From an uncultured Pelagibacteraceae bacterium (GTDB lineage Bacteria; Pseudomonadota; Alphaproteobacteria; Pelagibacterales; Pelagibacteraceae), in contig CACOVP010000005.1 of NCBI GenBank assembly GCA_902630665.1, positions 1 through 64,000 of the forward strand: a stretch of 64,000 bases of DNA, in the 5' to 3' direction. Positions 59,238 to 64,000 of the stretch are shown here, one piece after another. Every line of letters begins with the position of its first letter. Position 1 is the stretch's first letter. The notes beneath the pieces are model-generated. The model was not told the DNA's origin. It saw nothing but the letters and a program-made list of their open reading frames with translations, and did not search any database. The translations under genes and the position numbers were made by a program.

Positions 59238-59596
59238 CTGCCAGATAATTGGACAGTCGCTAAAATTAAAACTTTTAGAGGAAAGTCCGGGCTCCATAAA
59301 GACACAGTGCCAGTTAACGGCTGGCGAAGGTGACTTCAGGGATAGTGCCACAGAAAATAAACCGCCTAATCAAGGCAAGGGTGAAACGGCGAGGTAAGAG
59401 CTCACCGGTTTTCTGGTAACAGAAAACGCACGGCAAACCCCACTGGGAGCAAGGTTAAATAGAGAGGACACTGCAATTTTGCAAAAAACTGTCTTTAGTT
59501 AGTCCTCTGGGTTAACCGCTTGAGCTTAAGTGCGAACTTAAGCCTAGAGAAATGACATCTTCAATGACAGAACCCGGCTTATAGATTATCTGGCGA
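59238..59596 (+). ncRNA. rnpB: RNase P RNA
   Basis: Catalytic RNA that trims the 5' leader of tRNA precursors. The strongly conserved 5' P4 block GAGGAAAGTCCGGGCTCC lies near 59278 and its partner ACAGAACCCGGCTTATAG near 59567. The 5' end GCCAGATAAT pairs with ATTATCTGGC at the 3' end to form helix P1, which sets the borders to within a few bases. GGTGAAACGGCGAGGTAAGAGC and CACGGCAAACCCC are other conserved parts of the specificity and P-domain. About 355 bases, with G+C visibly higher than neighbouring genes. No reading frame covers it. Confidence 0.96.
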
Positions 59597-59646
59597 ATTC
59601 CTCATTTGTTGTTCTGCTTTTGTACTAAATCTCAAATATAAAGATA

Positions 59647-59674
59647 TTGACTATTTTTTAAAAACCCATACTAT
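59647..59674 (+). promoter_or_regulatory. Candidate sigma-70 promoter of mraZ-ftsZ cluster
   Basis: TTGACT (59647-59652) followed after 16 bases by TACTAT (59669-59674) forms a good sigma-70 promoter. Its -10 element is overlapped by the CCCA repeats of the MraZ box, so MraZ binding would compete with polymerase. Predicted leader about 60 bases. Confidence 0.5.
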
Positions 59675-59689
59675 CCCAAATAATCCCAT
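59665..59689 (-). promoter_or_regulatory. MraZ box: three TGGGN repeats at 10-base spacing
   Basis: On the plus strand CCCAT, CCCAA and CCCAT begin at 59665, 59675 and 59685, exactly 10 bases apart; on the minus strand they read TGGGN-N5-TGGGN-N5-TGGG. This is the known MraZ operator layout (TGGGN repeats with five-base spacers). It lies about 50 bases upstream of mraZ and over the -10 element, which suggests autorepression of the whole division cluster. The orientation relative to mraZ is reverse. Confidence 0.7.
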
Positions 59690-59739
59690 AATGGAGGGTG
59701 ATTTGAAAATTTTAATAATTAAAAGGCACCAATATAACG

Positions 59740-60204
59740 ATGTTTTTATCAAACTACGAAAACAAAATAGACAAGAAAGGTCGGGTCTCAGTGCCAGCTA
59801 CTTTTAGAGCGTACTTAAATTCTATGGGGTATAATGGATTTATTAGCTATCCATCATTTAGTCATTTTGCATTGGAAGGTTGTTCTCAAGATAGAATTGA
59901 AAAATTATCAAATACAATTGACTCATTAAATCCATTCGAGGAAAAAAGAGACTTTTTTGCTACATCAGTTTTGTCAGAAAGTGAAAACTTACAATTTGAT
60001 ACTGAAGGCAGAGTATCAATTTCAGAGAAATTACTCAATCATGCAAAAATAAGTAATAATATTTTATTTGTTGGCTTAGGCAAAACTTTTCAAATTTGGG
60101 AACCAAAAAATTTTGAAAAATTCAAAATATTTGCAAGAAAAAAAGCCTTTCAAAATAGATCAAACTTAAAATGGGAAAACAAACAGAAAGGAGAGATATC
60201 ATGA
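59740..60204 (+). CDS. mraZ: Transcriptional regulator MraZ
   Basis: DNA-binding protein that controls the division and cell-wall cluster. The 154-residue length is normal, and the two family DXXXR signatures are visible: KIDKKGRVSVPATFRAYL in the first half and FDTEGRVSISEKLLNHA in the second. It binds TGGGN repeats, and a three-repeat box lies just upstream. Its stop overlaps the ftsZ start as ATGA, and its last codons carry the strong ftsZ ribosome site, so FtsZ synthesis is tied to mraZ translation. Confidence 0.95.
   Translation: MFLSNYENKIDKKGRVSVPATFRAYLNSMGYNGFISYPSFSHFALEGCSQDRIEKLSNTIDSLNPFEEKRDFFATSVLSESENLQFDTEGRVSISEKLLNHAKISNNILFVGLGKTFQIWEPKNFEKFKIFARKKAFQNRSNLKWENKQKGEIS
60187..60193 (+). 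promoter_or_regulatory. Strong Shine-Dalgarno of ftsZ
   Basis: AAAGGAG lies 7 bases before ATG 60201, inside the 3' end of mraZ. It is the strongest ribosome site I noticed in this part of the window and decides the ftsZ start over the upstream ATG at 60171. Confidence 0.8.
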
Positions 60205-61694
60205 GTATAAATGTTGGAGGGGGTGAGCTAAGAGAATTGAAACCAAGAATATTAGTAATAGGAGTAGGTGGCGCTGGTGGAAACGCTATAAATGCCATGA
60301 TAGATGCAGGCATGCAAGGAGTAGAGTTTGTTGCAGTCAATACTGACGCTCAAGATTTGAAGATGAGTAAAGCAGATGCAAAGATACAAATAGGAATGAA
60401 TTTGACTAAAGGACTTGGAGCTGGAGCAAAACATGACATTGGTCAAGCAGCTGCTGATGAGTCAATAAATGAAATCGTGAATTATATTCAAGGAAGTAAC
60501 ATGGTTTTTATAGCTTCGGGCATGGGCGGAGGCACAGGAACTGGAGCTTCACATGTAATAGCAAGAGCTGCAAGAGAAATGAATATTTTGACTGTTGGTG
60601 TTACAACGCTTCCTTTCGCATATGAGGGCCCTAAAAGAATGCGAAGAGCTGTTGCTGGCCTTGAGGAATTGAAAAAACATTTAGATACTACGATTGTAGT
60701 ACCTAATCAAAATCTTTTTAAAATAGCAAATGAGTCTACTGGATTTGAGGAGTCCTTTAACTTATCTAATGAAGTTTTGAAACATGGTGTTCAAAGCATT
60801 ACAGATTTAATGGTGAGACCTGGCATGATTAATTTAGACTTCGCTGATGTCGAAACAGTGATGAGTTCAAGTGGAAAAGCTATGATGGGTACCGGAGAAG
60901 CTGAAGGAGAAAATAGAGCAATAGTGGCTACGGAACTTGCCTTGAACAACCCGCTGATTGACGAATACACTTTACAAGGTGCAAAAGGGCTCCTAGTTAA
61001 TATAACAGGGAGTAGTGACCTTAAACTTTTTGAAGTAGATGCAGCTGTAAATAAAATTAGGGCAGAGGTCGACCCAGAGGCTGAACTAATCTTTGGTGCA
61101 ATAAAGGATGAAAATATGAATGGTAAAATAAGAGTTTCAATAGTCGCTACCGCATTGTATGGCTCAGAAACAAAACCTTACTTGAACCTAGTTAATAATA
61201 ATTCAAACGGAACTCCTACAACTAAAACTTTTTCTCAATCAGAAAGTTTGTTCAATACAAATCATATCGAAAAAAATATTGTTAATTCGATTGATGGAGC
61301 TACCGCTTTAAAACTTGATGAAAGTTATGAAATCAAAAATAGCGAAGAACAAAGCGAATTGATTGATAGCTTTGAAAATAATGAAGAAAATCAAATCAAT
61401 ATTGATTTAAAAAATAATAAAAACAATAGCGAGGAAATCCCAACAGGCGTATCAATTGAAAGCGCTTCTTATATGGAGCAAAATAGAGAAAATGTTAACG
61501 AAAACAACCCTATAATTGATAAAGAAAAAGTAGAAGAAGAATTTACCCCAAAACTTTTTTCAGATGATCAAGGTCTAGATGCTGGTAAAACAAATACCTC
61601 TAAAGATGAAAATGAAACACAACAATTATTTGATCAAAATGAGGAGGAAGAAGATTTTGAAATTCCTGCATTTTTAAGAAGACAAAAGTTTTAA
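60201..61694 (+). CDS. ftsZ: Cell division protein FtsZ
   Basis: Tubulin-like GTPase that forms the Z ring. The track starts at 60171; ATG 60201 is preferred because of the AAAGGAG site and the protein start MSINVGGGELRELKPRILVI. GTP motifs: GVGGAGGNAINAM, AVNTDAQDL, tubulin signature GMGGGTGTGASHVIA and the T7 loop MINLDFADVETVMSS. After the GTPase core (about residue 315) comes a charged, asparagine-rich linker of about 165 residues and the C-terminal peptide FEIPAFLRRQKF that binds FtsA-type partners. It lies between mraZ and rsmH rather than after ftsA as in most bacteria. Confidence 0.97.
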   Translation: MSINVGGGELRELKPRILVIGVGGAGGNAINAMIDAGMQGVEFVAVNTDAQDLKMSKADAKIQIGMNLTKGLGAGAKHDIGQAAADESINEIVNYIQGSNMVFIASGMGGGTGTGASHVIARAAREMNILTVGVTTLPFAYEGPKRMRRAVAGLEELKKHLDTTIVVPNQNLFKIANESTGFEESFNLSNEVLKHGVQSITDLMVRPGMINLDFADVETVMSSSGKAMMGTGEAEGENRAIVATELALNNPLIDEYTLQGAKGLLVNITGSSDLKLFEVDAAVNKIRAEVDPEAELIFGAIKDENMNGKIRVSIVATALYGSETKPYLNLVNNNSNGTPTTKTFSQSESLFNTNHIEKNIVNSIDGATALKLDESYEIKNSEEQSELIDSFENNEENQINIDLKNNKNNSEEIPTGVSIESASYMEQNRENVNENNPIIDKEKVEEEFTPKLFSDDQGLDAGKTNTSKDENETQQLFDQNEEEEDFEIPAFLRRQKF

Positions 61695-61713
61695 ATGATA
61701 AAATTTGAAATTA

Positions 61714-62724
61714 ATGAAAACTCAAATATCATCACTGGAATACTCTCATTTTCCAGTGATGTTGAGTGAAGTTGTTCAAATTTCATCTCCAGAAAAAGGT
61801 GGTATTTTTGTTGACTGCACTTTTGGCGGCGGAAGTTACTCTAAAGCCTTACTCAAATTTCCAAAAACAAAAGTAATTGCAATAGATAGAGATCCAGCAG
61901 TGGTTGCGATTTCGAAAAAATTTGAAAAAGTATACAAGAACAGATTTCAATTTTATCAATCAAAATTTAGCCAAATAGACAAATTTCTAAAAAAAGATAT
62001 TGATGTAGCAATATTTGATCTTGGATTGTCATCAATACAACTCAATAATTTTAAAAGAGGTTTTTCTTTTAAATCTAAAGGAGAAATAGATATGAATATG
62101 GGTCTTTCTAATTTTTCCGCTCAAGATGCAGTGAACAACTTAAGTGAAACTCAATTAAAATTAATAATCAAAATATTAGGTGAAGAAAAAGAAGCTTATA
62201 GCATTGCAAAAAACATTGTGCGGGCAAGATCAAAAAAAAAGATAACAAGAGTAGATGAACTTGTAAAAATTATAGAAAAAAGTAAAAGGAAAAATTTCTA
62301 CTCTAAAATACATCCAAGCACTAAAACTTTCCAAGCTTTAAGAATTTATGTTAATAAAGAAATAACTGAGCTTATAAATGGAATAGTTAAGGCAACTAAA
62401 TTACTCAAACCTGGAGGTAAGTTATTAATAGTTAGTTTCCATTCAATTGAAGATAAAATCATCAAATTTCTTTTTAGTAATTTCTCACAAAATAAATCTA
62501 AGCCTTCCAGATATTTTCCTGAGGACAACAGTGAAAATTTAATTTTGTTCGAAAAATACACAAATAAAGTAATTAGACCTTCAAAAAAAGAAATAAAAAA
62601 AAATAATCCATCACGATCTGCAAAGTTGAGATACGCTATTCGAAGTAAAAATGAATTTATTTTTCCTAATAATTTAATAAAAAAATTTAGCAGGTATTTG
62701 GATATTGAGGCAATATATGTATAA
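61714..62724 (+). CDS. rsmH: 16S rRNA (cytosine(1402)-N4)-methyltransferase
   Basis: Methylates C1402 in the ribosomal decoding centre (formerly MraW). The track starts at a TTG at 61705; ATG 61714 gives MKTQISSLEYSHFPVMLSEV, with HFPVML the usual first motif, and about 336 residues. SAM site FVDCTFGGGSYSKALL, VAIFDLGLSSIQLNNFKRGF, RIYVNKEITELINGI and LLIVSFHSIEDKIIKF are conserved. It follows ftsZ after 19 bases and overlaps ftsL by eight. Confidence 0.95.
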   Translation: MKTQISSLEYSHFPVMLSEVVQISSPEKGGIFVDCTFGGGSYSKALLKFPKTKVIAIDRDPAVVAISKKFEKVYKNRFQFYQSKFSQIDKFLKKDIDVAIFDLGLSSIQLNNFKRGFSFKSKGEIDMNMGLSNFSAQDAVNNLSETQLKLIIKILGEEKEAYSIAKNIVRARSKKKITRVDELVKIIEKSKRKNFYSKIHPSTKTFQALRIYVNKEITELINGIVKATKLLKPGGKLLIVSFHSIEDKIIKFLFSNFSQNKSKPSRYFPEDNSENLILFEKYTNKVIRPSKKEIKKNNPSRSAKLRYAIRSKNEFIFPNNLIKKFSRYLDIEAIYV

Positions 62725-63055
62725 ATTTAAACTTTGTATTTCAATTATATTTTTTTCATTATTATTAGTTGGAACTTCAATTATTAAGAATGAAACTAGA
62801 GATCTTGAAAAAAAAATAGACAATTTGAATGAGCGCATTGTTTCAAAAGAAAAAGATTTAAATGAGACACAATTAGATTTTTTTTATTTAACCTCGCCTT
62901 ACGTCCTCGAACAAAGAATTCAGAATTTGGATATAAATATATATATCCCAATGAAACACTCAAATATATTCTTAAGTTTTTTAAGTTTCATAGATCTTCA
63001 AAATAAATTTGTAATTCAAGAAATTCAAAATGAGAAAAAAATACAAAAAAGATAA
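62717..63055 (+). CDS. ftsL: Cell division protein FtsL
   Basis: Short bitopic division protein, about 112 residues from ATG 62717 (the track uses TTG 62705). Layout is typical: short cytoplasmic end MYKFK, one helix (LCISIIFFSLLLVGTSI), then a coiled coil NETRDLEKKIDNLNERIVSK with ending LTSPYVLEQRIQNLD, which fits the FtsL/DivIC region LxxPxRIExxA. Identity rests mainly on position between rsmH and ftsI plus this topology. It overlaps both neighbours (8 and 26 bases). Confidence 0.83.
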   Translation: MYKFKLCISIIFFSLLLVGTSIIKNETRDLEKKIDNLNERIVSKEKDLNETQLDFFYLTSPYVLEQRIQNLDINIYIPMKHSNIFLSFLSFIDLQNKFVIQEIQNEKKIQKR

Positions 63056-64000
63056 AAATCCAAACAAAAATCAGACAAGTTTTTATTTCGAAGACTATTT
63101 AGAGACAAACAAGAAAATAAGATTCAGTCGAAAAAAAAATTTTTTACAAGATAGGATATATTTATTATTTTTCCTTTTTTTTACTTTAATTTTAATATTT
63201 AGTTTAAGGATTGTTCATATTTCACTCAATAAATTAGAAATTTCCAACCAATCTAATTCATCAAAAAAATTTACATTATTGAGGAGAGATATAGTTGATA
63301 GAAACGGTGAGTTGATATCAAGAAATATTCAATCTTTCCACGCAGCAATTAATCCAAAATTAATTAAAAATAAAGAAAATTTTCTAATAAATTTAAGATT
63401 AAATTTTCCAAATATTCAAAAAGAAAAAATTGAAAATCAGATCAAAAAAGGCAAATATTTTTATTTGAAGAAACGCATAAACCAACAAGAAAAAGAGAAG
63501 TTATGGAATTTAGGACACAAAGCTATAATTTTTGAACCATTTCAGTCAAGAATATATACACATGCAAATTTATTCAGTCACATAATTGGCCAGGTAGACT
63601 TTGATAATTATGGAATTTCTGGCATAGAAAAATATTTTGATAAGGAGCTCAAAAATAGGGATTTGCTTAGCGAACCTTTAGAAATTACTCTTGATGTTAA
63701 CTTGCAATATTTAATTAATAAAGAATTAAATAAAGCATTAACCACATTTAATTCTACTGGGGCGGGCGCTTTGTTAATGGACGTTAAGACTGGAGAAATA
63801 TTGTCCCTCGTTTCTTTACCAAATTTTGACATAAATAAAAGAGCAAATGTAAAAGATAAAAAGTATATGAATAAAATTACTAAAGGTGTCTATGAGTTAG
63901 GATCAATTTTTAAAACTTTTACTGTAGCTCTTGCTCTAGAAAATAAGATTGTATCTCCTCAAACAATAATTCAGGACATTCCTCGTTCAATAAAGTGTTC
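63030..64000 (+). CDS. ftsI: Peptidoglycan transpeptidase FtsI / penicillin-binding protein 3 (3' end outside window)
   Basis: Class B PBP that makes septal peptidoglycan. It is not in the ORF track because it has no stop inside the window. From ATG 63030 the frame stays open to the end (about 323 codons). It has a basic cytoplasmic start, a membrane helix (IYLLFFLFFTLILIFSLRIV), the PBP dimerisation block RRDIVDRNGELISRN, HIIGQVDFDNYGISGIEKYF, TLDVNLQYLINKELN, STGAGALLMDVKTGEILSLV and the acylation motif SxxK as GSIFKTF. It overlaps ftsL by 26 bases. The SxN and KTG motifs would lie beyond the window. Confidence 0.93.
   Translation, partial: MRKKYKKDKNPNKNQTSFYFEDYLETNKKIRFSRKKNFLQDRIYLLFFLFFTLILIFSLRIVHISLNKLEISNQSNSSKKFTLLRRDIVDRNGELISRNIQSFHAAINPKLIKNKENFLINLRLNFPNIQKEKIENQIKKGKYFYLKKRINQQEKEKLWNLGHKAIIFEPFQSRIYTHANLFSHIIGQVDFDNYGISGIEKYFDKELKNRDLLSEPLEITLDVNLQYLINKELNKALTTFNSTGAGALLMDVKTGEILSLVSLPNFDINKRANVKDKKYMNKITKGVYELGSIFKTFTVALALENKIVSPQTIIQDIPRSIKC

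Follow-up and report, generated by a model that had tools for sequence, protein, structure and literature searches.

Escherichia coli MraZ, in the account that PMC8475190 gives of Eraso 2014, is an autorepressor with MraZ boxes. The dcw promoter of Burkholderia cenocepacia, PmraBc, carries repeats with a 10-nt period, and the fragment is bound by MraZ in vitro (PMC7761207). Mycoplasma genitalium and M. gallisepticum, with their reduced genomes, have a short division cluster, ftsZ among its genes, that MraZ represses; the M. genitalium chromosome has a single copy of the operator motif (PMC8475190). A different kind of arrangement, in which a single ribosome-binding region serves two starts in different frames, is known from Thermus rnpA-rpmH and from a few E. 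coli genes (PMC9841429). Among open-licence papers we found none that deals with the control of mraZ in SAR11 or with a leader ORF in front of this gene.

The mraZ-ftsZ locus

The window, a 64,000-nt stretch of DNA, is contig C5 of a genome that is 70% complete at 829 kb. The nearest named relatives of its MraZ, at up to 98% identity, are proteins of uncultured Pelagibacteraceae (SAR11), with Candidatus Pelagibacter HIMB058 among those listed. The preliminary description had assumed a genome with few regulators, which fits the SAR11 literature, where few transcription regulators are reported (PMC13198564). The gene run reads ampD-like amidase, rnpB, promoter, mraZ, ftsZ, rsmH, an ORF at the ftsL position and ftsI (Table 1). 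MraZ has the DxKGR motif in its N-terminal half and GR in its C-terminal half, and the DNA-binding loop residues D11, K13, G14 and R15 are common to E. coli MraZ.

Table 1. Features of the mraZ locus, in window coordinates
Feature	Position	Strand	Remarks
rnpB, RNase P RNA class A	59241..59597	+	Rfam RF00010, 302.8 bits
-35 element TTGACT	59647..59652	+	read directly; 94/94 distinct genus regions
MraZ box repeat 1	59664..59668	-	ACCCA on + (TGGGT on -)
-10 element TACTAT	59669..59674	+	between repeats 1 and 2; TANNAT form in 94/94 distinct genus regions
MraZ box repeat 2	59674..59678	-	TCCCA on +
MraZ box repeat 3	59684..59688	-	TCCCA on +
Shine-Dalgarno GGAGG of leader ORF	59693..59697	+	conserved in most genus members
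Leader ORF	59703..59807	+	34 aa; TTG start, TAG stop (59805-59807)
mraZ	59740..60204	+	154 aa; ATG start; Pfam PF02381, E 3.2e-19
mraZ codon 18, GTG	59791..59793	+	invariant in family
ftsZ	60201..61694	+	ATG start; PF00091, PF12327; only copy found
rsmH (mraW)	61705..62724	+	PF01795
ftsI	63030..63998	+	PF03717, PF00905; continues past window end

That ftsZ lies directly behind mraZ, as first described, is borne out by a 4-nt overlap of its ATG with the mraZ stop (ATGA); its Shine-Dalgarno sequence, AAAGGAG, is at 60187-60193. The FtsZ_C profile has one match per genome, hence a single ftsZ. No other sigma-70-like promoter was found on the + strand from 59700 to 60210, between box and ftsZ, so the box would control the only ftsZ, barring read-through from rnpB. 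The latter gene lies directly upstream of the promoter in the same direction, about 50 nt before the -35 element, and is placed likewise in other SAR11 lineages. Between rnpB and the mraZ promoter (59241-59700) no terminator was found, so read-through could supply ftsZ mRNA independently of MraZ. Such transcription from rnpB into the mraZ operon is possible.

All SAR11 loci of families f1 and f2 with a flank long enough to read have the order mraZ-ftsZ-rsmH, which two family f9 genomes share; the remaining Alphaproteobacteria and Pseudomonadota tested have mraZ-rsmH. Two f9 loci (L103, L119) show an rnpB-end-like sequence, boxes, and mraZ adjoining ftsZ.

A flipped MraZ operator on the core promoter

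CCCA can be read directly at 59665-59668, 59675-59678 and 59685-59688, in steps of exactly 10 bp as the preliminary description had it, and its overlap of the repeats with TTGACT-N16-TACTAT agrees with the coordinates of both elements, which are separated by a spacer of 16 nt. The repeats straddle the -10, with repeat 3 just downstream of the predicted transcription start (about 59681, placed from the -10). The mraZ promoter thus contains TGGGN as a direct repeat, in at least three copies set 5 bp apart. In the 64-kb window CCCAN6CCCAN6CCCA has a single exact match, and the sole further match at up to two mismatches is unrelated. From the frequency of CCCA/TGGG, 0.0005 exact triples are expected per window and 0.006 per genome. 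This expectation and the restriction of the pattern to mraZ in 81 related genomes exclude a chance origin.

Relatives were examined genome-wide by pattern searches. The exact pattern is present in 69 of the 81, each time before mraZ and nowhere else, and a reversed control pattern gave 0 matches. Of the 12 others, nine gave no mraZ match and three have mraZ near a contig end. Matches with one mismatch are few away from mraZ, in the genus about as frequent as control matches. In the sister family f2 a box-like sequence with one mismatch, CCCATAAAAGCCCATCTCAATCCA, recurs away from mraZ in many genomes (e.g. G049:C1:118106-118129). Comparison of mraZ upstream regions, the check that the preliminary description had proposed, found the repeats kept: all 94 distinct regions from the genus have three exact repeats, TTGACT, a 16- or 17-bp spacer and a TANNAT -10. 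Other genera of Pelagibacteraceae have about three repeats, and the sister family has up to five at 10-bp steps (L025-L026, L052-L071). Five exceeds the three or four of described systems.

The orientation of the array follows the class. Among 45 other Alphaproteobacteria, exact in-register CCCA occurs at least twice in 39 and at least three times in 25, whereas TGGG runs reach two repeats in 2 and three in none. At 30 other Pseudomonadota loci the register runs near mraZ are TGGG or GTGGG on the coding strand, like E. coli. Relative to the gene, then, the array is flipped in Alphaproteobacteria. CATTGAC is found in 22 of the 45 alphaproteobacterial mraZ promoters, and in the sequences inspected the -35 often abuts a repeat.

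The location of the repeats on the core promoter would also suit a conserved element, of the promoter or of DNA structure, that has nothing to do with MraZ. We consider this extremely unlikely, since the repeats occur at mraZ promoters alone across about 80 genomes, share the 10-bp TGGG periodicity with E. coli and differ in number between lineages. The claim that they form the MraZ operator is instead strongly supported by their sequence and distribution, with the qualification that the operator takes an alphaproteobacterial form, flipped and lying on the core promoter.

A leader ORF between operator and mraZ

The preliminary description is thus well supported on the operator, the position of ftsZ and the scarcity of regulators, but it overlooked both the class-wide flip of the array and a leader ORF between operator and mraZ. 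The TTG of this ORF lies 37 nt before the mraZ ATG and is therefore out of frame with mraZ, whose codons 1-22 the leader overlaps in another frame; the leader could instead start at an in-frame ATG, at 59691. Its product has no Pfam match, and the stability of mRNA structure over the leader is unremarkable (z-score -0.77).

Leader length in the genus ranges from 22 to 79 nt, yet the phase is nearly constant: of the 85 leaders recognised, 83 stand at 1 mod 3 from mraZ and none at 2 mod 3 (L181 counted from its GTG). The two others, L172 and L209, are in frame with mraZ. An open leader-frame start between box and mraZ is present in 88/91 genus sequences, against 30 in shuffles, and in all 22 scorable sequences from other genera, against about 6. 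In those genera the leader often starts at an ATG that precedes the ATG of mraZ by only 7 nt, and the Shine-Dalgarno sequence is better placed for the leader. In the clade around HIMB058 (L014, L016, L017, L135, L137) the leader TTG is lost and the frame is still open; these sequences have ATA where L169 has ATG, and most have an in-frame ATG further up.

To score the overlap, synonymous mraZ codons were redrawn by local usage and the frame was followed through codon 20. The leader frame is open in 118 of 119 distinct family sequences, against 0.6 expected (genus 94/95 against 0.5; other genera 24/24 against 0.1). The only closed overlap in the genus is that of L172, one of the two fusions of leader to mraZ. 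The sister family, whose leader shares the mraZ frame, has the overlap open in 1/23. Upstream of mraZ, distinct leader segments are open in the leader frame in 82/82 cases, compared with 1/82 and 9/82 in the other frames and 20% of shuffles. Because related sequences are not independent, we also give counts on a tree, built without the leader, on which phase changes were mapped. At least 16 changes of leader length are seen; the phase was altered in two, both of which fused leader to mraZ.

Codon choice points the same way. In five of 140 mraZ columns a minority codon is fixed, namely TAC6, AAC8, ATA10, GAC11 and GTG18. The T-ending alternatives of the first four would create stops in the leader frame; alternatives to GTG18 would not. 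Codon 6 goes back and forth between TAC and TTC, with at least 20 switches on the tree and no TAT or TTT. These patterns in the sequences show clearly that selection keeps the leader frame open.

An open frame could in principle be the decaying remnant of an N-terminal extension that MraZ once had, left after a frameshift. In favour of this, the sister-family leader is in frame with mraZ, as are the two in-frame leaders of the genus. A relic would lose its frame, though, and the near-complete openness of the overlap, together with codon 6 avoiding TAT and TTT, makes this very unlikely. In three sister-family loci (L063, L070, L020) the in-frame leader is TTG-led, and in that family it predicts an N-terminal extension of MraZ, hydrophobic and about 12 residues long (MLIILITNFFLK-MALFLS).

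If the frame is selected, its peptide might be what matters rather than the act of translation, the overlap being dual coding for a functional small protein or an antagonist peptide. The frame is kept across the whole family, and the alanine read from GTG codon 18 never changes. Every other position that is free to vary does so: mraZ codons 14-17, 19 and 20 change 27-44 times on the tree. With an N-terminal part as short as 2 and as long as 26 codons and no Pfam match, a peptide function is unlikely. Variation at the free positions favours the act of translation.

Programmed frameshifting from leader into mraZ was rejected by inspection. TTT-TAG could slip +1, but lineages with the stop at +62 have no slippery codon, and the product would lack the conserved N-terminus of MraZ.

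Codon 18 of mraZ

All 119 distinct family sequences have GTG at codon 18, a triplet that makes up only about 7% of Val codons, and selection for an open leader frame does not account for this invariance. One reading is that the leader feeds an internal restart at this codon, yielding an MraZ that is truncated at the N-terminus and lacks its first DNA-binding loop. The leader stop (+62 or +68) lies 9-15 nt downstream of the GTG, and Lys13-Gly14 provide AARGG about 10 nt upstream of it. Yet the stop can arise merely from the common codons TTT AGA, both fused-leader genomes retain the GTG, and truncated MraZ may not fold. We regard the restart as unlikely, on a par with the peptide. Slightly less likely still is a twofold control of SAR11 MraZ that would build on it, in which a flipped core-promoter operator is combined with a family-wide leader diverting ribosomes, a GTG restart and two MraZ forms whose ratio sets expression of the single ftsZ.

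Discussion

Taken together, our results are explained best, and with fair confidence, by an autoregulatory MraZ operator in combination with a leader ORF that lowers MraZ translation. By analogy with the MraZ of other bacteria, the protein would contact the direct repeats along a single face of the DNA, covering the -10 and the start site, and would shut off transcription of mraZ-ftsZ-rsmH-ftsL-ftsI. Since the operon is shared, MraZ and FtsZ would then rise and fall together. On the mRNA, the first strong ribosome-binding site is predicted to drive the leader ORF, which runs out of phase through the mraZ start. Ribosomes loaded there would bypass this start, which has no well-placed Shine-Dalgarno sequence of its own, and so little MraZ would be made per message, while ftsZ would be translated from its own site. 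In this way the leader ORF probably throttles MraZ translation. Feedback of MraZ on the level of FtsZ is plausible on the present analysis.

SAR11 cells are among the most abundant marine organisms, and the mraZ locus bears on the question of how cells with few regulators set FtsZ. It offers a single, testable point of FtsZ control, at which a transcriptional operator is joined by a conserved translational element. The operator belongs to a known kind, here as an alphaproteobacterial variant; the bigger find, and the part worth pursuing, is the overlapping leader ORF. Selected out-of-frame overlaps at gene starts are rarely described in bacteria (PMC9841429).

Compared with described systems, the operator resembles that of E. 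coli, where the K-12 genome sequence itself has three TGGG direct repeats at 10-bp steps before mraZ, at the dcw promoter. There TGGG is on the coding strand, which is usual but not defining, and in the window it is on the opposite strand; the E. coli repeats lie downstream of the -10, whereas those of the window straddle it, and the window has ftsZ immediately after mraZ. The B. cenocepacia dcw promoter shares the 10-nt repeat period but has four repeats, again downstream of the -10. The mycoplasmas resemble SAR11 in having a short division cluster with ftsZ, a reduced genome and a single operator. Their repeat unit, however, is AAAGTG[T/G], and mraW follows mraZ with ftsZ last. For the leader, the ambiguous starts of Thermus and E. 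coli are a near parallel, and the other Pelagibacteraceae genera share it with their frequent 7-nt distance between starts. At the present locus, by contrast, the first frame is short and its stop falls within the second gene, and in the genus of the window the two starts are mostly 37 nt apart.
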